42,326 nucleotides of DNA, taken from positions 1 to 42,326 of the forward strand of contig DQLG01000864.1 in the NCBI GenBank assembly GCA_015660315.1. The letters are read 5' to 3'. Position numbers and translations under genes: made by a program. The stretch's first letter is position 1. Each line of letters starts with the position of its first letter. Positions 5,608 to 23,125 of this stretch are shown here, in pieces. Source of the stretch: Candidatus Latescibacterota bacterium. Its GTDB lineage: Bacteria; Latescibacterota; UBA2968; UBA8231. The notes beneath the pieces were generated by a model that saw only the letters and a list, made by a program, of their open reading frames with translations, searched no databases and had not been told where the DNA came from.

Positions 5608-8600
5608 GTGCCCCGATTGCCCTTTATCTCATTTCTGAACTTTATTCTTGCCGCGCTCTTGCTAACCGCCGCATCCGCAGATGCGACGGACCATCACGCG
5701 ATCCATGTCGTACGGAGCGATGCCCGAAGCCTGATCGTCGAATTGCGGCTGCCCGCGCAGGCCGGTTTGCAGACAGACCTGCCCCGCCTGCAAACTGGCG
5801 AGAATATGCCCGCACTGCCCTTTCTCGCGCGCATTTTCGCCACCCCGCCCGGCATAACCCCGATAGTGCGGGTCCTTGACGCAGAAAGCGTCGAGTTTAC
5901 CGATTTCGACCTAGCCGACGCACCCGTATCCGACACCTATCTGCCCTCCGAACGCGCTAAGAGCGAATACCTAGGTGTCTTGCGCGGTGTAGAGACCCAC
6001 GCCCTACGCCTCTTTCCCCAGAGCTACAACAGCGCCCGCAACACCCTGCGGGTCTATACCCGCCTATTAGTTGAGATACGGTTCTCCGGAGCCGGTGCCG
6101 CCGCGAAGACAACCGCCCCCGACCCTTTGTGGAACCCCTTGCTCAATCGCGAGCAAGCCGCCGCTTGGACGCAGACGCCGGCGGCGGCAAAGATCACCGA
6201 GGGCGCGTGGTACAACCCGGAAGCCCCGTGGATCAAACTGGAACTCGGTGAAGATGGATTATACCGGATCAGCCCCGATTGGGTCAACGCCTTTGCCAAC
6301 TCGGCAGCCATCGACCCCCGCAGCTTTCGCTTGTTCTACTTGGGCCAAGAACAGCCATTGCACGTCGAGGGCCAGGCCGATGGTCGTTTCGACGCGGAGG
6401 ACTTCCTGCTCTTTCACGGACGTTACCGCCGCGATGACCGCGATTTCAACAGCCTCTACGGCCGGCGCAACACCTATTGGCTTACTTGGGGCGGTGACGC
6501 GGGTTTGCGCTTCAGCGAGCGCTCCGGTGCTCCCGTCGCCGGCTATCCAGAAGAACGCTCCTTCTGGACCACGGCTCATATCGAACGCGATATTCACTAC
6601 GAGAGTCTCGACGCAGCGCCAGACGACGACCGCGACCATTGGTTCTGGGACCTGGTCGAAAATCGATCCGAAAGCCCAGCCTCTATTATCGCCGCCGGGG
6701 ACGTGCCCTTCGCCGATTTAGGAGAAGAATACCAGGCCCGCATCCGCGTCGCCCTACACGGTTTCACCGACCTGGGACACCATACCATCATCAAACTGAA
6801 CCAACACACCGAGATCGATGACCGCATCTGGGGCGCGCAACGGGAAGGGCAAATCGAATTGATAGTAGAGCGGGAGATACCCTCTACTACCCTGCGAAAG
6901 GGCACCAACCGGGTTTTAGTGCAGGCCATCCCCGACCAGGCCAAATTCGACTGGGTCTACCTCAACTGGTTCGCCATCGACTACCGGCGCCTCTACACCA
7001 CCCGCACCGGCCACTTAGAATTCGCGCAAACGCCCTCCGCCGGACACCGCATCAAGGTCAGCGGTCTCCGCCACCCACAAGTCGAACTGCTCGATATCGC
7101 CAACGGTTATCGCTTTACCGATGCTCTAATCGAAGGCGCGAATTCGACATATGTCGCGATTTTCGAAGATCAGCACGAGACCGACGCCCTTTATATCGCC
7201 GCAGACAGCCTTGCCCTGATGACACCCCGAGGAAGCCTCGATCTTCCATCTAGTTGGCAGCGCAGCGAACACAGCGCCGACTACCTGGTCATCGCCCACC
7301 CCGAACTTTTGCATGCTGGGCGCCGCCTCGCCATGCACCGTCAGAGCCTCGGTCTGCAAACAGCTCTCATTTCCAGTGAGGACCTTTACGACGAATTTAC
7401 CTACGGACGCCTCGACCGCGATGCCGTGCGCAACTTCCTCTCCTACGCCTACCACAACTGGCAAGGCCGCCCAACCTACGTCCTGCTCTTGGGCGACGAA
7501 ACCTGGGACTACCGCAATATCCAAGGCGGCGGCGTGCCCACTGTAGTACCGAGCCTGTTCTACCAATCCCGGGGCCGCGGCACCGCGCCGAGCGATTACC
7601 TCTACACCCTAGTTGACGGCGACGACCTGCTACCCGATTTCCACATCGGGCGGCTCGCCGCCTCCTCGGCCCAAGAAGCCGAGCAAGTCGTCGACAAGAT
7701 CATCCGCTACGACCTCGACCCGCCCGCCGGCGATTGGCGCAACCGCATGATCTACCTGGCCAACTACCACCCCAAAAACATCTTCGCCGATCCCAGCGAC
7801 TCGCTCGCCGCCCGCTTTACCAAACCCGCCGGCCTGACTTCTATCAAAGTCTACAACACCGGAGACGACCCGCTCCCCAATCCCACCGGCCGCACTTTTG
7901 TCGACACCTTCAACGACGGCGCGCTGCTGCTCAACTTCAACGGCCACGGTAGCGCGGGCACCCTGCAATTCGTCTTCAGTCTGGGCCTGCCCGATTGGGA
8001 CTATCTGAGCCAAATACAAAATGGCCGGCGCACACCACTCGTCCTAGCCCTCTCATGCCTCAATGGCCTCTTCGCCAACCCCACCGTCGAGGGCTTGGCC
8101 GAAGTACTAGTCAATGAACCCGACCGCGGTGCCGTCGCCTATATCTCGGCCAGCGCCAAGAGCTTCGTCGCCCAGAACAACCTACTCTCGAATTTTTTCT
8201 ACGAGCAGTTCTTCACGCACGGCAACTTACAGTTCGGTCCCGCGCTCGACCTCGCTAAAATCCAGGTCCTAGCCGCGCACACCAGCTGGGTCGACGCAGT
8301 ATTGACCATGCAGCTGATCGGCGACCCAGCACAAAACCTGGCCCTGGTCCCCGGTGCAGATTACACGCCCGCCTCGATCAAATTAGACGCCGACGCGGTC
8401 CGCGGCCACGCCACTCTGCAGATCGATACAGAATTGCGCAACAATGGGCGTCCGACGCTCGACAGCCTCTCGGTGGTCATCCTAGGCCACCCGGCACAAG
8501 CCTCTCCGGAGACTCTATTCGCTGCGATCGAACCACCCTTCACCGGCACCCGTACGCTCTCCTTCGCCTGGTCCGTCGGCGCCCGGCGCGGCCCCTACCG

Positions 8601-11034
8601 CCTTGAAGTTCTGCTCGACGGGGTCAAGCGGATTGCCGAATTCGACGAAACCAACAACGGCCTAATGTTGGATCTGAATATTCTTGAACCGCTCTTGCCC
8701 ACACCGCTCTTTCCCGCGCCGGGGGCCACACTACCCGGTACCGCACTGCGCCTGGAAGCCGCCGTGCCGCTCGACGGGCGCGCCTACCAGTGCGAGTTCG
8801 CCATCGCCACCGCGCCCAATTTCGTCAACGACACCATCACCGCGATGCAAACTGCCGTATACGGCTTAGCCGTATACGAACCACCCGAACTCGCCGACAA
8901 CCAGGCCTATTTCTGGCGGGTCCGCCTGCACTCCGCGCAAGCTCCTGGCCCTTGGAGCGCGACCCGCTCCTTCCGCCTGGGCGACAGAGTCTCCACGTGG
9001 AGCCAGCGAGGGGCGCAATTGTTGACCGGCACGATCGAAGATCTCGTACCCGACGATGCGGGGCACCTTTCCCCCTCGACGCGTTCGTTGCCCTTGCACC
9101 CTTCCGAAGCAACACGCGAAGACGGTTTCACGGTGCGCAAATTGCAGGGTTCCGGCGTACTCGTCAGCGACGGCACCTACCTCTACGCCAAGCGCTGGTA
9201 TAACGACGACTCGACAATCTACCCGGGCATTGACCATTTCACCCGCATCGGCACCGGTCTAAACGGCACCTTCCGCAGCGGCAATTTCGGCGTGCTCACC
9301 GACTCGACGACCGCCGGTATCTCAGCGACCTACCACAGCGACGGTTATATCTACAACGAAAGCGGCAAGGCTTTCGAGATCGAGCGCATCCGCGCCATCG
9401 ACGGCGTACTCGACACCGTCGCCGTACCCGACGGCCTGCTAGAGTGGAAATTCGGCCGGGTCGAAAACGGCCATTCGCTGATCACCTCCGATGGCACCCA
9501 TATCTACAATGTCGCGATGAGCTCGGAGAAAGGCGCCCACACCGAATGGCGGATCCGCGTCTTTGACCCGGCGCAAGACTGGTCCATAGTGCGCGAATTC
9601 ACCTCGCCGCCGACCGAGACCGGCTTCACTTTCGAATGGACCGACGGCATCCTCGCCGACGGCGAACGCCTGTATCTAGTCGAGTGGCAGGGCCAACGCC
9701 GAATTCGCATGATCGACGCCTTCGACGGAAGCTTTCTCGACGAGTGGCAGAGCGACCAAGACATAACGCGGGTCATTACCGGCCAATATGATTGGATCAA
9801 CAACAAAGTGTGGATGGGCGACCTATTGTCGTCGGCGGTGTTCCGCTATCCGGGGCTGGGCCAAGTCTCACGCGGCCAACTCACTTCGGTGCCGGTCGGC
9901 CCGGCCGCCCGCTGGGACGCGCTCTCGGTCGCGGGCAGTGGCCCACTTTCACTAGACGTGCTCGTCGCCAAAGGCGACACGTGGACAACCCACCCGCAAT
10001 TGCGCGACTTGCCGCTCGGCGACGTCGACCTCAGCGCGCTGGATGCCGCCATCCACCCGTATATTCTCCTGCGTGCGCGGTTCACCGACCCCACCGCGCA
10101 ACTCAGCAGCTGGTCGGCCGACTTTGCGCCGCGCCCCTCGCTGGCACTCAGCCGAGCGAGCAGTACACTAGGCCAAGCCGGTCTACAAATCGAACTGCAG
10201 GTGCGCAATCTCGGTGCGGCAAGCGATGGTGCCCGGTTAAGCCTCGAACAAAGCGGCCTAGACCATCCCCTACGTCAACTGACCCTCGGCCCCCTCGCAC
10301 GCGGCGAAAGCCGCACAGTGCGCTTCGATAGCCTCGACGCGCCACCATCGCGCGCGCGCCTGTTTGCCACGATCGACGCGAACCAACCCGACGCCGACGC
10401 AAAAGATAACCGCTTGGAAATCCCGCTATTCTTCCCCGGCCATATTCCGCTCGCCTTCGCGCTGTGGCCGGAAACCGGTACCTTCTTGAGCGGCGATCCG
10501 CTGCGCCTCGGCCAAGGGCTCTTGCTCGATGTCCCCGACCTAAGCAATGCACGTATAGAACTTTACCTAGACGGGCGCGCGATCGCACCGGACTCCACCC
10601 TCGACGCCTTTCCCGCACCGCCACGCCTGCTGTGGCGCCCCCACCTCGACCTAAGCGAAGGCCGCCACGAACTCGAAACCCGCCTCTTCAGCGACAACGA
10701 GGAAATCGGTCGCCACAAAATCGCCTTCCGCTTCGGCGACACCCTGCGTATCGCCAACTCCCTGCTCTACCCCCATCCGGTAAAAGGGGCCTCGGCTTTT
10801 ACCTATATGCTTTCAGGCTCCGCTGAAGTCGAGATCGAAGTATTCGCGTTGACGGGTCGCCTGATCCGCCGACTCGGGCCATTTGCACAAGAGCCGGGAT
10901 TCCAGCAAACCCCATGGGACAGCCGCGACCAATCGGGCGCCCTACTCGCCAACGGGACGTATCTCTATCGCATCGTCGCGAGAGATCAAGAGCATGTCGT
11001 GGTGTTTCGCGGAGCGTTGGTAGTGGGGCGCTGA
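5608..11034 (+). CDS. Giant secreted C25 (gingipain-like) cysteine peptidase with propeller and FlgD-like C-terminal module
   Basis: 1808 residues starting at GTG. There is a signal peptide (about 1-26), then a gingipain-propeptide-like region (about 30-150) and a beta-rich region. The peptidase C25 domain spans about 556-910 and has the His/Cys dyad: His780 in NFNGHG and Cys817 in ALSCLNG. After it come a CARDB-like adhesion domain (about 917-1025), an Fn3-like stretch (about 1030-1127), a propeller-like repeat region (about 1170-1420), a second CARDB-like domain (about 1510-1610) and a terminal FlgD/type IX-like module (about 1715-1808: TGRLIRRLG, then WDSRDQSG, then NGTYLYRI). It is therefore probably exported and surface-attached or released. 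PorU, the type IX sortase, is a C25 protein of about 1100-1200 residues; this one is longer and has inserted modules, so a degradative peptidase or a sortase variant are both possible. No strong ribosome site precedes the GTG. Confidence 0.88.
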   Translation: MPRLPFISFLNFILAALLLTAASADATDHHAIHVVRSDARSLIVELRLPAQAGLQTDLPRLQTGENMPALPFLARIFATPPGITPIVRVLDAESVEFTDFDLADAPVSDTYLPSERAKSEYLGVLRGVETHALRLFPQSYNSARNTLRVYTRLLVEIRFSGAGAAAKTTAPDPLWNPLLNREQAAAWTQTPAAAKITEGAWYNPEAPWIKLELGEDGLYRISPDWVNAFANSAAIDPRSFRLFYLGQEQPLHVEGQADGRFDAEDFLLFHGRYRRDDRDFNSLYGRRNTYWLTWGGDAGLRFSERSGAPVAGYPEERSFWTTAHIERDIHYESLDAAPDDDRDHWFWDLVENRSESPASIIAAGDVPFADLGEEYQARIRVALHGFTDLGHHTIIKLNQHTEIDDRIWGAQREGQIELIVEREIPSTTLRKGTNRVLVQAIPDQAKFDWVYLNWFAIDYRRLYTTRTGHLEFAQTPSAGHRIKVSGLRHPQVELLDIANGYRFTDALIEGANSTYVAIFEDQHETDALYIAADSLALMTPRGSLDLPSSWQRSEHSADYLVIAHPELLHAGRRLAMHRQSLGLQTALISSEDLYDEFTYGRLDRDAVRNFLSYAYHNWQGRPTYVLLLGDETWDYRNIQGGGVPTVVPSLFYQSRGRGTAPSDYLYTLVDGDDLLPDFHIGRLAASSAQEAEQVVDKIIRYDLDPPAGDWRNRMIYLANYHPKNIFADPSDSLAARFTKPAGLTSIKVYNTGDDPLPNPTGRTFVDTFNDGALLLNFNGHGSAGTLQFVFSLGLPDWDYLSQIQNGRRTPLVLALSCLNGLFANPTVEGLAEVLVNEPDRGAVAYISASAKSFVAQNNLLSNFFYEQFFTHGNLQFGPALDLAKIQVLAAHTSWVDAVLTMQLIGDPAQNLALVPGADYTPASIKLDADAVRGHATLQIDTELRNNGRPTLDSLSVVILGHPAQASPETLFAAIEPPFTGTRTLSFAWSVGARRGPYRLEVLLDGVKRIAEFDETNNGLMLDLNILEPLLPTPLFPAPGATLPGTALRLEAAVPLDGRAYQCEFAIATAPNFVNDTITAMQTAVYGLAVYEPPELADNQAYFWRVRLHSAQAPGPWSATRSFRLGDRVSTWSQRGAQLLTGTIEDLVPDDAGHLSPSTRSLPLHPSEATREDGFTVRKLQGSGVLVSDGTYLYAKRWYNDDSTIYPGIDHFTRIGTGLNGTFRSGNFGVLTDSTTAGISATYHSDGYIYNESGKAFEIERIRAIDGVLDTVAVPDGLLEWKFGRVENGHSLITSDGTHIYNVAMSSEKGAHTEWRIRVFDPAQDWSIVREFTSPPTETGFTFEWTDGILADGERLYLVEWQGQRRIRMIDAFDGSFLDEWQSDQDITRVITGQYDWINNKVWMGDLLSSAVFRYPGLGQVSRGQLTSVPVGPAARWDALSVAGSGPLSLDVLVAKGDTWTTHPQLRDLPLGDVDLSALDAAIHPYILLRARFTDPTAQLSSWSADFAPRPSLALSRASSTLGQAGLQIELQVRNLGAASDGARLSLEQSGLDHPLRQLTLGPLARGESRTVRFDSLDAPPSRARLFATIDANQPDADAKDNRLEIPLFFPGHIPLAFALWPETGTFLSGDPLRLGQGLLLDVPDLSNARIELYLDGRAIAPDSTLDAFPAPPRLLWRPHLDLSEGRHELETRLFSDNEEIGRHKIAFRFGDTLRIANSLLYPHPVKGASAFTYMLSGSAEVEIEVFALTGRLIRRLGPFAQEPGFQQTPWDSRDQSGALLANGTYLYRIVARDQEHVVVFRGALVVGR

Positions 11035-12375: not shown

Positions 12376-15300
12376 TTACCGCAGCAACATCATTTTTTGC
12401 CGCCCCCGGTAGGGATCGGCCTTCAGCTCATAAAAGTAAATCCCGCTGCGATGACCGGACGCGTCCCATTCGACTTCGTGCGCACCGGGTGCGAACGAGC
12501 CTTCCACCAAGCGCTCGATCTCCTGGCCCAAGGCATTGTAAATCGTCAACTGCACTTGGCTGACGATCGGCAGGTCGAAGCGGATCAGCGTCGAGGGGTT
12601 GAACGGGTTGGGAATATTCGGATGCAGCGCGTATTGCTCGGGGCGGGGTGCACCCACCACTACTTTGCCGGTGCCTTCTACACTAGTCCCCGTATCGGAG
12701 AAAACTAACAGAATATTGGCCACTGCGATAACCCAACCCTCGCCCGGCGTGTCGCTGGCGACAAAAGAGCCAGAGCGCGTGTCGATCGTGCCGATACCGC
12801 CAACAGTGTGCCAACCGAAGCTGCGCGGAACCACATTGCCGTAGCGGTCCAGCGCTTTGGCGCGGAAAGTCTGCCGCGCTCCTGGTTCGATCACAATAGA
12901 GCCAGGTTCGATCACCACTTCCACAACCGAATGCGGGGTGACGGTGATATTGTAGGTCGCTTCGGCCCCGCCGGCACGAAAAACGATATCCTCACGCACG
13001 CCCGAGACCTTCGTCAGGGTCAACGCGCCCTTCGCCGTCACCTCGCCCAACGCCGCCGGCACCTCCCATTGGTAATCGGCAATGGCGACCGGTGCGAGAT
13101 CGCTCGAATCCTCGGCACTAAAAGAAAACACCTCGAAAGTGACCGAGCGCCCCACCCTTGTCCTCAGCGGCGACAGACTCAAGCGCGCACCGGCCCGGCC
13201 CTCGATATGCAGTCGCAGCGGCGGGGGCGGCGAAAAATGCAACACCAAATCGCCCTTGCCCGCCATCTCCAACACCAACAAATCGTCTTCTGGCGAAACC
13301 CCCAACAATTCACCGCTAAAATTGGCGTCGTCGAGGGTGCGCCCCTGCAGGGGGATCGACAACTGATACCCCGTGCCCGGCCCACGCACAAAACCGGCGA
13401 AACGCTCGGCGTCCAGCTCAATACTCGTGTCGATCTTCTCGCTGGCGCTGAATAGCACTGCATCACCATTTGCCAACTCCGCCGCATCCTGTACCACGAA
13501 ACGGGCAATCGCCCCTTCGAAAGCACGCACATAACCGAAGGCGGCATCGCTTATCAAGCCCCCGGTCAGACCTGACACCGACGCGCTTTGTGCATCGGCC
13601 GCACGCACCCAAGTGATATCGTTTTGCGGGATCCCGGGCACTTCGACCAATAACGCGTTCGCCCCTGTCGCCTCAATGGTCTCGAAGTTCGCCTCCGGCG
13701 TCCCCGACACCTGCGGATAGAGCGTCGCCAAATATCGCACGTCGGTTCCCCGCTGTTGTACACGCAACATCGTGTGCGTCTGCTCTTCGAGATAGTCGAA
13801 GGAGTGAATCGTATCGCTATCGGTCGCGACAAGACCCGTATGGTCCTCAGGCAAAAAGGCAATCAGCGCCGCGCCCTCCCGCGCCCAGCGCGCCAACGTG
13901 CCGCCGCGCGAATAGGCGCCGCCGCTCGTACCGCCCCCATTGCCGTGCAGCCGCCACTCGTAGTCGTGCTCCTGACCATCAGCAGTAATCTCGTCGGCGA
14001 CGATAAAATAGCTCCGGTCGGCAAAGAAAACCCGCCGTTTCAGCTCAACGCCCCCGTAACTGGCGTCGACCTCGCAGTAGTCTCCAGCCGAGCTGGTGAA
14101 AGAATCGAGGATAAAGGCATCGTTGCCGCCGCCGATGGTCTGGCCAAACGCCGTAAAACGCGGCGGTCCCTGGCCGTCGACCAATACCACGTTGTGGTTG
14201 CGACCTTCGTTTACCTTGTCGTGGTTGCTGAAGTTTATATAACCGGCGTCAAGCGCCAGCATCTCGCCACCGGCGTAGATCAAGAAGCTGGTCTCGTCCG
14301 CATGCTCGTGCGCAAACCCTCCCGTACGAGCAACGCCGTTCTCACCCCGCAACAGCATATAGGTGGCTTCCGCCGACCAGTCGCTGCGGAAGACCGCGTC
14401 CCCGGCCCCCGGCATAAAAACCGATGGCCCGTGCGTTGGCTCGGTCGCCGCAATGCTGTCGTCGTAGAGGGCGATCGCGTCCATCTCGGAAAATTCGCGC
14501 ACATAGAGCCCATTCGCGTTGTTTTCCCAGTCCCAGCGATGTACGCCACCGTCGGGATAAACCGCCGCCAGATAGTGACCGTAAAAATCATCGAGGTGAC
14601 CATCGTCGATATTCGGCCGGCGGCCATTGGGCAGCCGCAGATTCAATGACCAATCGTGCATCTTTTTAATCTTGGGGTCGGTGAACAAATTCAAGCCGGT
14701 GCGATCTCTCAGCGCGAACATATAAGGCAGGTAGACATCGGCGGCATAACGGCTGTAAAACGGCCCCTCGGCATAACCGCCGTCCAGCGCATCGATCTGA
14801 AAATCCAGACTGCCCTTCACCAATTCGAAAGCCCGATCGGCCCAATCCTGCGGTGTGCCCTGGTCTTTAACCCCCGGATGCTCGCTCAACGCCATCGCCG
14901 CCAACCCTAGACCGCCATACGCGCGAATATGCCAATTGTCGATATGCGGCGTCTCGTGCAAGCGGAGAACGATCTTGATAATCCCCAAATCGATTTCTCT
15001 GAGTTCAATGCCTTCCCACAGGCGCCCAGCCTCTTCGGCGAGTATCGCCCGCATTTCTTTTAGGGCACCGGGATTATTGGCCGCCGCGTAAGTGTGCAGG
15101 ATATCGTAAGCGACCGCGTACTGGGCCACCACCTCGCCCTCGTTGTGCGGTTCGCCCAGATCGCCCCCTCTCGGCGGGAAGGCGACCTCCTGCATAACCT
15201 GCAAGGCCCGATCAGCGAAGGCGCTGTCGTCGGTCATCAACCAGGCGAAAGCCAGAGCCTTGGCGAAGCGAACCTTGGTGCGCTCTTCGGTGAAGGTCGT

Positions 15301-15495
15301 CGGAACGTTCTGCGCCCGATCCAGCACGGTCTGCCACCAGATAGCGTAGGGCTCCCGCTGAATTCGCTCTTTGAGTTGCGGAACGTCCTCGGCACTAAAC
15401 AATAAACCCGGATGCACCTCGGACGACAGATTTTGCGCGGAGGACGCCAGGGACGTGAGTACTGTTAAAACGGCGAAGAGAGCTAGGGCGTACAT
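12376..15495 (-). CDS. Secreted heparinase II/III-like polysaccharide lyase with FlgD/type IX-like C-terminal module
   Basis: 1039 residues. There is a signal peptide (MYALALFAVLTVLTSLASSAQ), an alpha/alpha-toroid alginate-lyase-like region (about 30-340) and a heparinase II/III-like beta-sheet domain (about 367-640). The latter has the family's GDAVFRSDW entry and the FAHEHADETSFLIYAGGEMLALDAGY segment near 390-415. Next is a bacterial Ig-like stretch (about 830-930; EPGARQTFRAKALDRYGNVV), and last the sorting module (about 954-1039: NIPNPFNPSTLIRF, then VEWDASG, then SGIYFYEL). The enzyme would cleave uronic-acid-containing or sulfated polysaccharide outside the cell; the exact substrate cannot be read. 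The start at 15495 follows GAGG and opens the signal peptide; an upstream in-frame start at 15528 would spoil it. Confidence 0.88.
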   Translation of the reverse strand: MYALALFAVLTVLTSLASSAQNLSSEVHPGLLFSAEDVPQLKERIQREPYAIWWQTVLDRAQNVPTTFTEERTKVRFAKALAFAWLMTDDSAFADRALQVMQEVAFPPRGGDLGEPHNEGEVVAQYAVAYDILHTYAAANNPGALKEMRAILAEEAGRLWEGIELREIDLGIIKIVLRLHETPHIDNWHIRAYGGLGLAAMALSEHPGVKDQGTPQDWADRAFELVKGSLDFQIDALDGGYAEGPFYSRYAADVYLPYMFALRDRTGLNLFTDPKIKKMHDWSLNLRLPNGRRPNIDDGHLDDFYGHYLAAVYPDGGVHRWDWENNANGLYVREFSEMDAIALYDDSIAATEPTHGPSVFMPGAGDAVFRSDWSAEATYMLLRGENGVARTGGFAHEHADETSFLIYAGGEMLALDAGYINFSNHDKVNEGRNHNVVLVDGQGPPRFTAFGQTIGGGNDAFILDSFTSSAGDYCEVDASYGGVELKRRVFFADRSYFIVADEITADGQEHDYEWRLHGNGGGTSGGAYSRGGTLARWAREGAALIAFLPEDHTGLVATDSDTIHSFDYLEEQTHTMLRVQQRGTDVRYLATLYPQVSGTPEANFETIEATGANALLVEVPGIPQNDITWVRAADAQSASVSGLTGGLISDAAFGYVRAFEGAIARFVVQDAAELANGDAVLFSASEKIDTSIELDAERFAGFVRGPGTGYQLSIPLQGRTLDDANFSGELLGVSPEDDLLVLEMAGKGDLVLHFSPPPPLRLHIEGRAGARLSLSPLRTRVGRSVTFEVFSFSAEDSSDLAPVAIADYQWEVPAALGEVTAKGALTLTKVSGVREDIVFRAGGAEATYNITVTPHSVVEVVIEPGSIVIEPGARQTFRAKALDRYGNVVPRSFGWHTVGGIGTIDTRSGSFVASDTPGEGWVIAVANILLVFSDTGTSVEGTGKVVVGAPRPEQYALHPNIPNPFNPSTLIRFDLPIVSQVQLTIYNALGQEIERLVEGSFAPGAHEVEWDASGHRSGIYFYELKADPYRGRQKMMLLR

Positions 15496-15653
15496 AGAAT
15501 CCTCGTAATTGTAGTGTCGCGTTGACACATAAATTCGCCCGGAGCGAATTTCGCGAATACATCAACGCATCAATGGGTACATCACGCCGAGGAGGGCAAT
15601 GGCGGTCCGGTGTGCTGCATCACTATAGACGCCCGATGCCTGGGAAGGGACAG

Positions 15654-18971: not shown

Positions 18972-19188
18972 CACCTGCCGCAAAAGTGGCCCGCCTCCGT
19001 CGCGGCGATGCAATCGTCGTGGTAAAGAGCCGCTCTTCAAGCAAGGCTTAAACAACTGAAAACAATGCAGAAGCTCGGCATCCGCCTTTAGGCCACTGCA
19101 TTTTGCCCTGGCGCGAGGGCGCTTTTTGCTCCATACTTGATCACTGGCCGCAACACAAATATAGCGGCCACTACAGCAACATAGATCG

Positions 19189-19366
19189 GTCCAGGTGCCG
19201 GGTGTGTAAACCCGGAGAATAGGGAAGGCAGTGCGAATCTGCCGCGGTCCCGCCACTGTGATCGGCCGACGGACATAGTCCGTCCTTGCCCCCGTTCTAC
19301 CCACTGGTCCTATGACTGGGAAGGGGGGACGCAAGAAGAGCCGGAAGTCAGGAGACCTGCCTGGAC
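19189..19366 (+). promoter_or_regulatory. Cobalamin (B12) riboswitch
   Basis: The class signature is present in order: closing stem GTCCAG (19189-19194) with CTGGAC (19361-19366); a GGAAGGCAGTGCGAATCTGCC core (19223-19243) followed by GCGGTCCCGCCACTGT (19244-19259); a side hairpin GACGGA/TCCGTC (about 19268-19284); and the B12 box AGTCAGGAGACCTGCC (19346-19361). It lies directly upstream of a BtuB-like receptor and a downstream intrinsic terminator, which fits transcriptional shut-off when adenosylcobalamin or a related corrinoid is plentiful. Confidence 0.95.
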
Positions 19367-19407
19367 GACAAGGTCGAGCATACCTTCGAAGGAAAGGCGA
19401 CTCACCG

Positions 19408-21699
19408 GTGCAAGCCAATTTTGCCCCGCCCCGCCCTCATCTGAGGCCGGGGTTTTTTTGTAAGCATATAACGCGCTGCGGCATTTTGTTGCTGCTGTCC
19501 ACGCCGGCCTCAGCCCTGCGTGGACAGGTGCGCGACGCCGACACGGGCATTGCCCTTTCCAGTGCCCTACTCCGCGTTGAGTCACTGGCCTCCGCCCTTG
19601 CACCACCTTCCCAGACCACCTACTCCGATACCGGCGGCGCATTCTCGCTACAACTGCCCCCCGGACGTTGGCGACTCAGCATCGAACATCTGGGTTATAC
19701 TGCCACCCAACGCGAGATCACAACCCCCGTCGACACCCTACTGGCCATCCGCCTCGAACCCCGCCCACTGCTAATGGACGAAATGGTCGTGCAGATTCGC
19801 CGGGCGGGCGACTCGGCCGAATCACCGGCCTTTGTCGAACGCATCGACCTCGCCAAGGAGGGTAGCGCCGGCATCGACCTACCTCGACTGCTCGAAAAAG
19901 CGGTCGGCGTGCAGATTCGCCGCTACGGCGGCCTGGGCAGCTTCAGCACCGTCTCAATCCGTGGCTCCACCGCCGAACAAGTGCTGGTCTTCCTCGACGG
20001 CATACCGCTCAACCAGGCACAGGGCGGCGGCGTAGACCTCGGCGACTTGCCACTGGCCGGCGTAGAGAGCATCGACGTCTACCGCGGGGCCGTGCCCGCC
20101 CGCTTTGGTGGCAACGCCATCGGCGGCGTGGTGCATATCCGCACCCGCGCCCCCGGCGACAAACCCCATCTGCGATTGAGCGCGGGCAATGGCTCCTTTC
20201 GCACCCGTCAGCTTGGCCTGAACATCAACGGCCGCCGCCGTGCCTATCGCTATAGCGCCCTACTCAACTACGGCGCCAGCGAAAACGACTTCCGCTTTCT
20301 CGACGACAACGGTACCGAATATAACGCCAACGACGACCAATATACCCGCCGACGCAATAGCGACTTCGCCGGCCTACGGGCCCTCAGCAAGATCCAACGC
20401 GACTGGCGCGGCCATCGCCTGCAGGCCTACGCGACTTTCGATCTCAACCACCGCGGCATCCCCGGTATCAGCAATAACCAATCGCTGCACACCCGCTACG
20501 ACACCCGCCGCCAAGCCAGCGAAGTCGAACTCTTCGGCCCACTATTCGCCACCGCGGGCTATCGCCTTAAAGCCTACCGTCTCACCCAAGAAAGCGAGTA
20601 CAAAAACCTGCACGGCGAGGTCGGCGCCGGTACCCAACACAATCGCAACACCATCAGCTCGCACGGCGTGCGTGCCGAAATCAACACCCTACTACCCAAG
20701 AGCGCGCTGCTCACCAGCTTCGCGGAAACCCGCCGCCAGACCTTCCAACCCAAAGACCTCCTGCGATCCGATCAACAGCGGCGGGAAAACCGACTAGGCA
20801 CCGAAATCGAACCGCCATTCCAACGCCTAGAGCTAGCACTCGGAAGCGAAGTCGAGGTCCCGCTCCGGCGCTTGTCGCTTATGGCCGGAGTACAGACCAA
20901 AAGGCTCGACGACCGCTTCCGCGGCCCGAATGCCTCCGTCTATAGCCAGCTAACCCCAGAGCGCGAAAAAAGCCAGTGGCTTGGTAGTTGGCGGCTGGGC
21001 TTGCGCCTGAAAATCGGCCACGGTTTCGCGCTACAAGGCCACCGCGGCCACAGCCAACGCCCCCCGAGTTTCCAGGAGCTTTTCGGCAACCGCGGCGCCG
21101 TGATCGGCAATATCGACCTCAAAAACGAACGCGGCAACAATTCCGATGCCGGGCTAGTCTATCGCGGTGCGGGATTTTTATCCCTGGCCGAGATCGCCTA
21201 TTATCGCAATTCGGTCGATGACCTGATTCGCTTTATGCAGAATTCCCAATCCGTGTCCCGCGCCCTCAATGTCGGCCGCGCCCGACTCAGCGGCGTCGAA
21301 ACTCGCCTGCAAACCCGCTTAGCCTGGACCCGGATCGATTTCAACTACACCTACCAACGTGCGGAAAACCGCTCCGGCTTCGCCTACGAACGCGGCAACG
21401 AACTACCCAACGCACCGCGCCATGCGCTTGAAGTTCGGCTGAACATCGAACAAGGCCGCCATTCCGCCCACTACGCTTTAAGCCGCGAAAGCCGTCACTA
21501 CCTGGACCGCGCAAATTTGCGCCCTGTGCCCAGACGGCTGGTGCACGGTCTCGGCGGGCGCATCGCCCTAAACACGCGCACTGCCCTAAACTGGGAAGTG
21601 CGCAACTTGACCGACAACCAGATCGCCGATCTCTGGGGTTATCCTCTGCCCGGCCGCGCCTTATTTCTCTCTATTAAGCAAAACCTATTCACTCCGTAG
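19408..21699 (+). CDS. btuB: TonB-dependent outer-membrane receptor, BtuB-like (cobalamin uptake)
   Basis: About 763 residues if read from the GTG at 19408. A hydrophobic signal segment (CGILLLLSTPASA) is followed by a carboxypeptidase-regulatory-like domain (about 36-130; RGQVRDADTGIALSSALLRV), a plug domain (about 150-255; SIRGSTAEQVLVFLDGIPLN and VYRGAVPARFGGNAIGGVVHI) and a 22-stranded-type barrel ending in an aromatic-rich strand. Under the cobalamin riboswitch its substrate is almost certainly a corrinoid. The start is uncertain: GTG 19408 has an AAAGG ten bases upstream but places the terminator inside the coding region. After the terminator no ATG or GTG precedes the signal sequence, only ATA (19468), ATT (19483) and TTG (19486). 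The secreted propeller gene follows after 13 bases. Confidence 0.9.
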   Translation: MQANFAPPRPHLRPGFFCKHITRCGILLLLSTPASALRGQVRDADTGIALSSALLRVESLASALAPPSQTTYSDTGGAFSLQLPPGRWRLSIEHLGYTATQREITTPVDTLLAIRLEPRPLLMDEMVVQIRRAGDSAESPAFVERIDLAKEGSAGIDLPRLLEKAVGVQIRRYGGLGSFSTVSIRGSTAEQVLVFLDGIPLNQAQGGGVDLGDLPLAGVESIDVYRGAVPARFGGNAIGGVVHIRTRAPGDKPHLRLSAGNGSFRTRQLGLNINGRRRAYRYSALLNYGASENDFRFLDDNGTEYNANDDQYTRRRNSDFAGLRALSKIQRDWRGHRLQAYATFDLNHRGIPGISNNQSLHTRYDTRRQASEVELFGPLFATAGYRLKAYRLTQESEYKNLHGEVGAGTQHNRNTISSHGVRAEINTLLPKSALLTSFAETRRQTFQPKDLLRSDQQRRENRLGTEIEPPFQRLELALGSEVEVPLRRLSLMAGVQTKRLDDRFRGPNASVYSQLTPEREKSQWLGSWRLGLRLKIGHGFALQGHRGHSQRPPSFQELFGNRGAVIGNIDLKNERGNNSDAGLVYRGAGFLSLAEIAYYRNSVDDLIRFMQNSQSVSRALNVGRARLSGVETRLQTRLAWTRIDFNYTYQRAENRSGFAYERGNELPNAPRHALEVRLNIEQGRHSAHYALSRESRHYLDRANLRPVPRRLVHGLGGRIALNTRTALNWEVRNLTDNQIADLWGYPLPGRALFLSIKQNLFTP
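19429..19459 (+). terminator. Riboswitch-controlled intrinsic terminator
   Basis: A stem of CCCCGCCCTC (19429-19438) paired with GAGGCCGGGG (19443-19452), with one internal C-C mismatch and an ATCT loop, runs into seven T (19453-19459). It lies 62 bases after the cobalamin aptamer and just before the receptor's signal-peptide codons, the expected place for the expression platform. Confidence 0.85.
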
Positions 21700-21712
21700 A
21701 AAGGACTCGTCC

Positions 21713-23125
21713 GTGAACATTTTATTCACCTTCATCACCTTCTCCGCCCTTAGCAGCGGTGCACTCGCGCAATCTGGACTCTTCGTGACCACCACCGACT
21801 TCGCCAGCGGTAGCGCCGCTTATTTGCCGTCGGGTGCCGCAGAAGCACAAACGAACCTGCTCAATCTGCATTCAGATACCATCGTGCGCTATTACCAAGG
21901 CCGGATCTATGTCGTCAACCGCCTCGGCCAAGACAATGTGCTAGTACTCGACGAAAGCGACCCACGCACACCGGTGATGCAGTTTTCAACCGGCAACGGC
22001 ACCAACCCGCACGACATCGCATTCGTCTCCCCGAGCAAGGCCTACATCTCGCGCTACGACGATACCCAAGTGCTGATTGTAAACCCACAGGACGGCAGTG
22101 AACTCGGCACAATAGACCTCCGCGCGTTCGCCGATGTCGACGGCGCACCGGAGATGTCACAAATGGCCGTCGTCGGCGACCGCCTCTACATCGCCTGCCA
22201 ACTGCAAGACCGCAACGCGGGTTTCAAACCCGCCGCGCAAGGCATCCTAGTCGTCGTCGACACCAACACCGACCAGCTCGTCGACATGGACCCGAACACC
22301 GACGGCGTACAAGCCTGGTTGCTATCCGCCGGCAATCCCACCAGCGTAGTCGCCGCCGGCAATCGGCTCGTTGTCGCCGAAGTTGCGGGTTTCGGCGATA
22401 TGGCCGGTGGCATCGAAGTGCTCGACCTGGCCAATGGCACTAGCCTGGGCCTCGTCATCTCCGAAGTCGCCCTCGGCGGCGATATCAACTTCCTCGATTT
22501 GGCCTCCGCCAATAAAGCCTATGTCATCGTCTCCGACGAAAATTTCGCCAACCATGTCTTTCCCGTAGATCTGGCCAACGGCACTGTTGGCGACAAACTC
22601 GCCAACCACTCCACCGGCTTCACGCCTAGTCTCGCCGTCGATGGCAAGCGCCTGATCGTCGCCGACCGCGGCACCTTCTCCGACCCCGATACCGGCGGCC
22701 TACTCTTCTACGATACCGACACCGACCAGTTCATAGCCGGTCCCATCTCTACCAGCCTGCCCCCATCGAGCATCGCGGTGCTCAGCGATGCCCCAGTGCC
22801 CGTGCCCACCGCGGTCGAAGGAGAGACGGGCCTCGCCTTGCCCGAGCGAAGCGACCTCGGGTTCGCCTTCCCCAATCCTTTCAACGCTGAAACACTGATC
22901 CCCTTCGAGATCGCCAGCGCGCATACCTCGGTCGAACTGACCGTATACGACCTCTTGGGGCGCCGGGTCCGCACACTCTTCGCCGGTGTATTGCAGGCCG
23001 GCGAGCACCGCTACACCTGGGACGGTCGAGGCGATAACGGAATTACGGCGGGCAGTGGTTCTTATTTTGTGGAATTGCGTCAAGGGGAAAGACGTCAAGC
23101 GCGGAAAATGACATTGCTTAAATAA
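21713..23125 (+). CDS. Secreted YncE-like beta-propeller with FlgD/type IX-like C-terminal module; candidate B12-capture partner
   Basis: 470 residues. GTG start with AAAGGA upstream; signal peptide MNILFTFITFSALSSGALA. Residues about 25-370 form repeated blades (VRYYQGRIYVVNRLGQDNV, then FVSPSKAYISRYDDTQVLIV, then VVGDRLYIACQLQ and so on) of the DUF5074/YncE-type propeller. The last 85 residues are the sorting module (FAFPNPFNAETLIPFEI, then YTWDGRGDNGITAGSGSYFVEL). It is the second gene of the cobalamin-riboswitch operon, 13 bases behind the BtuB-like receptor. In Bacteroides the surface propeller BtuG binds B12 and hands it to BtuB; by fold and location this protein is a candidate analogue, but with a C-terminal export module instead of a lipid anchor. 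The binding function is inference. Confidence 0.85.
   Translation: MNILFTFITFSALSSGALAQSGLFVTTTDFASGSAAYLPSGAAEAQTNLLNLHSDTIVRYYQGRIYVVNRLGQDNVLVLDESDPRTPVMQFSTGNGTNPHDIAFVSPSKAYISRYDDTQVLIVNPQDGSELGTIDLRAFADVDGAPEMSQMAVVGDRLYIACQLQDRNAGFKPAAQGILVVVDTNTDQLVDMDPNTDGVQAWLLSAGNPTSVVAAGNRLVVAEVAGFGDMAGGIEVLDLANGTSLGLVISEVALGGDINFLDLASANKAYVIVSDENFANHVFPVDLANGTVGDKLANHSTGFTPSLAVDGKRLIVADRGTFSDPDTGGLLFYDTDTDQFIAGPISTSLPPSSIAVLSDAPVPVPTAVEGETGLALPERSDLGFAFPNPFNAETLIPFEIASAHTSVELTVYDLLGRRVRTLFAGVLQAGEHRYTWDGRGDNGITAGSGSYFVELRQGERRQARKMTLLK

Follow-up and report, generated by a model that had tools for sequence, protein, structure and literature searches.

A B12 uptake operon of a Latescibacterota bacterium with a probable type IX-delivered, BtuG-like propeller as partner of BtuB

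Organization of the locus

The window analysed here, a stretch of 42,326 nucleotides from a Latescibacterota bacterium, carries a cobalamin riboswitch followed by the genes of a TonB-dependent receptor and of a beta-propeller protein. The features, all on the forward strand, are as follows:

19176..19378, +, full-length cobalamin riboswitch aptamer, RF00174 (cmscan)
19428..19459, +, intrinsic terminator, a GC-rich hairpin plus a T-run (RNA folding)
19468..21699, +, BtuB-like TonB-dependent receptor with an N-terminal carboxypeptidase-regulatory-like domain (Pfam, TIGR01779, structural model)
21700..21712, +, 13-base gap with the Shine-Dalgarno-like AAAGGA (sequence)
21713..21769, +, signal peptide of 19 residues with a GTG start, type I by eye, without lipobox (sequence)
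21770..22792, +, BtuG-like beta-propeller (PDB profile search, AlphaFold model, Foldseek)
22868..23110, +, C-terminal FlgD_ig / type IX type A sorting-like domain (TIGR04183, PF13860)

The aptamer spans model positions 1-189 of RF00174 with 112.8 bits (cutoff 31.5) and is the sole cobalamin riboswitch detected in this genome, which is about 84% complete. The terminator was recognized by RNA folding, with pairing at 19428-19453 and a U-run up to 19459; the folding z-score of this region, taken over a 93-nt stretch, is only -1.05, and a simple pattern scan did not pick it up. A hairpin plus T-run was read by eye at the equivalent place in the related loci L059-L061, L063, L065 and L075. A first reading of the window from its letters (here, the sequence-only reading) had proposed a riboswitch and a terminator ahead of a BtuB-like receptor, with a propeller gene 13 bases later, and cmscan, folding and ORF coordinates agree with this layout: the last base of the receptor frame is 21699 and the first of the propeller ORF 21713, leaving a gap of 13 bases in which AAAGGA stands just upstream of the GTG start of the propeller. 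The start of 19189 given by that reading did not hold, as the aptamer begins slightly upstream, at 19176.

In the receptor, the Pfam plug, barrel and CarboxypepD_reg domains were matched, and its best NCBIfam model is TIGR01779, although below cutoff (151.8 bits versus 599.7). Profile searches returned, in this order, XusA, BtuB1 of B. theta and E. coli BtuB, and the receptor model (pLDDT 79.7) has as nearest structure BtuB1 of the BtuB1G1 complex, followed by E. coli BtuB. An ORF of 795 residues opening at ATG 19312 was rejected as the real gene, since it passes through the riboswitch and therefore cannot mark the true start of btuB. No obvious ATG or GTG start for btuB is seen at 19459-19490. 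At 19468-19473, in place of the ATGATG of a 97%-identical relative (L059), ATAACG stands in the window, and the candidate starts are the ATA at 19468, which aligns with the ATG of L059, and the TTG at 19486, the nearest standard in-frame start. In two genus mates (L060 and L061) the btuB frame opens straight after the T-run of the terminator, likewise without ATG.

Linkage to btuB and the riboswitch in related genomes

Homologs of the propeller were present in 55 of 100 related genomes; public records list the named close relatives under Latescibacterota or Gemmatimonadetes. Among the 56 loci fetched around propeller matches, btuB was found in 54, the two misses lying at contig edges, and a same-strand riboswitch upstream of btuB in 46; eight of the ten loci lacking it have too little upstream contig, and the other two (L057 and L058) hold second-copy lipoproteins near another receptor. 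A scan of a species-level genome collection that was blind to btuB gave 116 relatives, of which 80, partly overlapping with the previous set, were kept. Of these named loci 76 had btuB at the locus, whereas three of the four misses start less than 240 bases from a contig end and L153, the remaining one, is a second copy. Moreover, the riboswitch lies 2.1-2.9 kb upstream of the propeller in 33 of 40 further loci, nearly all of them outside the 56-locus set, six others being truncated by contig ends. A chance operon was rejected, given that the scan blind to btuB still recovered it in 76 of 80 loci. A propeller mostly distant from btuB and the riboswitch was looked for as the contrary result and was not seen, whereas the recurrence of the gene pair behind cobalamin riboswitches that the sequence-only reading had suggested looking for in related genomes is borne out by both sets of loci. 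Seen from the side of the riboswitch, a propeller locus stands downstream of at least 46 of the 70 cobalamin riboswitches that 63 related genomes contain, and one genome of the same family (G011) has riboswitches and no propeller match.

The content of these operons varies. One locus (L140) has the order riboswitch-propeller-btuB, and others also hold CobT, CobS and CobU (L048), a BtuF-like gene (L080), BtuF-BtuC-BtuD-like genes (L056) or CbiZ (L170). In the second-copy lipoproteins L057 (4822-5910) and L058 (5017-6138), acidic residues follow the cysteine (CSDDDD and CSDKND), and their ligand may differ.

Secretion signals and surface anchors

The propeller protein (ORF 21713-23125, + strand, GTG start) has 470 residues, and its N-terminus, MNILFTFITFSALSSGALA^Q, was read by eye as of the signal peptidase I type. 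The absence of a lipobox and the FlgD/type IX-like C-terminal module noticed at first reading both stood up: no cysteine follows the signal peptide in the sequence, and the tail matches PF13860 (FlgD_ig) with 48.9 bits and TIGR04183 with 29 and 32.1 bits (cutoff 23), whereas PF18962 gives only 18.8 bits (cutoff 27). BtuG is a lipoprotein lid for which, in B. theta, the lipidated N-terminal linker was proposed to provide the hinge (PMC10404256); as the window propeller has no lipobox, this lipidated hinge is missing from it.

The genome encodes type IX components, including SprA (603 bits summed, cutoff 200) and PorV-family proteins (256 bits, cutoff 90), and 59 type A tail matches were found at E up to 0.001, most of them over cutoff. 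Within the window, a C25 peptidase of 1808 residues (5608-11034, + strand) resembles the type IX sortase PorU, although its 268 bits to NF033707 are below the cutoff of 420, and it ends in a FlgD_ig domain of its own. A heparinase II/III-like protein at 12376-15528 (- strand) also bears a type IX type A tail.

Complete members of the propeller family fall into classes with a type IX/FlgD tail, with a dockerin/EF-hand-like tail, or with a lipobox and no tail. With classes assigned by regular expressions and, in one case (L056), by eye, 68 members have a tail only, 13 a lipobox only, four both and seven neither (Fisher p 6e-8, without correction for relatedness). Lipobox matches on the tailed proteins L075, L129, L161 and L165 were judged false by eye, the cysteine lying within a longer signal peptide. 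On a tree with 54 type IX, 20 dockerin-like, 13 lipobox and seven untagged rows, nine label changes are needed; this tree is quick and has long branches, so that the number of swaps is approximate, and the N-terminus of the untagged rows is uncertain. In this tree the lipoproteins L130 and L157 are placed within a type IX-tailed Eisenbacteria group, and the dockerin/EF-hand-like tail is confined to one clade (families f2-f4). Members of these families (e.g., L080, 2642-3913) carry that tail in place of the type IX one, though their genomes hold SprA.

A tail without a lipid anchor leaves room for another role, in which the propeller would be set free to scavenge corrinoids as a diffusible protein, either shared or recovered at BtuB, instead of staying as a tethered lid, and type A tails do occur also on proteins freed after processing. 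However, the one-to-one pairing with a receptor and the lipoprotein versions within the family suggest tethering at the surface, which makes such a release improbable.

Relationship of the propeller to BtuG

For the window protein, the FlgD_ig tail was the sole confident Pfam match. When a profile of 43 sequences (that of the window plus 42 homologs, propeller part only) was compared with the PDB, nine BtuG sequences headed the list (E 3e-14 to 1e-12) and the first match other than BtuG was NirF (1e-5), placing BtuG about seven orders of magnitude ahead of every other propeller, whereas E. coli YncE was absent at E up to 0.1. In agreement with this, seven of the 43 family members matched PF16819 (DUF5074), the Pfam family of BtuG, at E up to 0.01, one of them (L045) with 29.2 bits over a cutoff of 27.2; no such match was obtained for the window protein. 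The AlphaFold model of the propeller (mean pLDDT 90.5), in which seven blades were counted from the strand order, gave BtuG entries at Foldseek ranks 2-14, many with bound cobalamin and with TM-scores by target of 0.72-0.79, after an archaeal surface-layer propeller of poor rmsd at rank 1. Solved BtuG structures include PDB 3DSM, 8BMX and 8BMY, and BtuG2 is BT1954. Structure prediction of the propeller alone, one of the checks proposed at first reading, hence points to BtuG, as do its fold and its operon place under riboswitch control, which had been described as right for a BtuG-type partner of BtuB. A generic YncE propeller was rejected, the E. coli protein not being returned by the profile and its fold match being worse.

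Since the best PDB profile matches are all BtuG and the model resembles BtuG-cobalamin structures, we read the window propeller as a distant but specific homolog that would have diverged from BtuG, not as an independent invention. Regarding the earlier wording of an independent or diverged solution, the BtuG-first profile matches together with the relatives in PF16819 favour divergence and leave independence unsupported. As the lipobox is absent, the window protein is not filed as BtuG proper; it is probably a BtuG-like homolog working like BtuG.

Conserved residues are enriched in top-face loops relative to bottom-face loops (p 0.002) but not relative to strands, a placement that weakly supports a ligand face. 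On the other hand, Trp194 of BtuG2, an aromatic residue that narrows the B12 cavity and the only pocket residue placed on the family, appears aligned with a conserved Gln, as read by hand from the profile alignment with a 31-residue offset and not from a structural superposition. This residue bears on whether the propeller, although co-regulated with BtuB, might bind no corrinoid and play a structural part beside the receptor, or bind a carrier or another surface molecule. At least one pocket residue of BtuG2 thus seems not conserved in the profile alignment, and the sequence divergence from BtuG is large. However, the propeller is a homolog of BtuG, which binds B12 (PMC6143338), and it is strictly coupled to the riboswitch and btuB across several phyla, so that a non-binding role is considered unlikely. 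Independent recruitment of a generic YncE-type propeller beside btuB, for which the identity to BtuG of only ~17% in the fold alignment and the propeller partners of other receptors (e.g., XusB, also among the fold matches) would speak, is still less probable in view of the wide lead of BtuG in the profile search, the absence of YncE from it and the PF16819 matches of relatives.

Proposed mechanism and corrinoid supply

Altogether, the locus is very likely a B12 uptake operon with a type IX-delivered, BtuG-like propeller that captures corrinoids for BtuB. At low intracellular cobalamin, the riboswitch would let transcription proceed past the terminator, and the BtuB-type outer-membrane receptor and the seven-bladed propeller would be made together. 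The propeller would then be exported by Sec and, via its C-terminal FlgD/type A domain, passed by the type IX system through the outer membrane, to stay held at the cell surface, where it would capture corrinoids and hand them over to BtuB; bringing them into the cell would finally be the task of a BtuFCD-type ABC importer, whose genes lie elsewhere in the genome. We infer that the propeller binds corrinoids, touches BtuB as a lid, is in fact secreted and is anchored through its tail. A BtuD-BtuF-BtuC-like ABC cluster, whose neighbours were read by eye, is present on another contig (C260). A search of this genome and of 45 relatives found no CbiC, which is required for corrin ring synthesis, so the cells probably scavenge corrinoids; for the class tested, the host and its relatives are probably dependent on this supply.

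Comparison with known systems and distribution

The closest system by profile and by fold is BtuG of Bacteroides, with which the window protein shares a seven-bladed propeller, the place beside btuB, a cobalamin riboswitch and export. It differs in having a C-terminal type IX/FlgD domain instead of the lipobox and N-terminal lipid linker, in its low identity and seemingly unconserved pocket Trp194, and in its occurrence outside Bacteroidota. The XusAB pair of Bacteroides (9GBC, 9HQK) likewise joins a TonB receptor with a propeller lipoprotein, and XusA is the top profile match of the receptor; its ligand is, however, a siderophore, a cobalamin riboswitch is not part of its description, and XusB comes after BtuG in the fold search (Foldseek 3e-10 versus 3e-15). 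BtuJ and the DUF4465 proteins are also surface B12 scavengers beyond gut Bacteroides (PMC13398666) but belong to another Pfam family, and a relationship was rejected, no DUF4465 match being found in these propeller proteins.

In 2018, a survey of narrow scope, covering 313 human gut genomes, reported BtuG in Bacteroidetes and in no other phylum (PMC6143338), whereas here the pair of receptor and propeller, likewise behind a cobalamin riboswitch, extends over several mostly uncultured phyla, namely, by the labels of the metagenome-assembled genomes, Latescibacterota, Eisenbacteria, Krumholzibacteriota, Fermentibacteria, Gemmatimonadota and Deltaproteobacteria. In the open-access literature we found no BtuG described from outside Bacteroidota, nor one bearing a type IX tail. 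Part of this wider distribution may already be implicit, as DUF4465 genes, of a family that spans eight clades, often lie near TonB receptors and PF16819 propellers (PMC13398666). It seems somewhat favoured that BtuG-type capture is old and widespread beyond Bacteroidota, and that the propeller was kept while its anchor was exchanged among an N-terminal lipid, a C-terminal type IX domain and a dockerin-like tail. If so, since a lid tethered at its C-terminus could not hinge as in B. theta, the hand-over to BtuB would not need a lipidated N-terminal linker. With these natural swaps of the anchor one could test whether the passage of B12 from catcher to receptor depends on the tether, and the gene pair could serve as a marker of corrinoid scavenging in environmental genomes.

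Two further PF16819 propellers were observed. A different lipoprotein propeller over the cutoff of this family (L188, genome G051, contig C72, 1704-2732) is flanked by a TonB receptor on one side and by a histidine-phosphatase gene, CobC-like by eye, on the other, and may represent another BtuG-like lineage within the same phylum. Finally, a propeller lipoprotein (L190, genome G156, contig C2) adjoins a TonB receptor in a small phylum of nine genomes, and BtuG-like genes may therefore reach further lineages.
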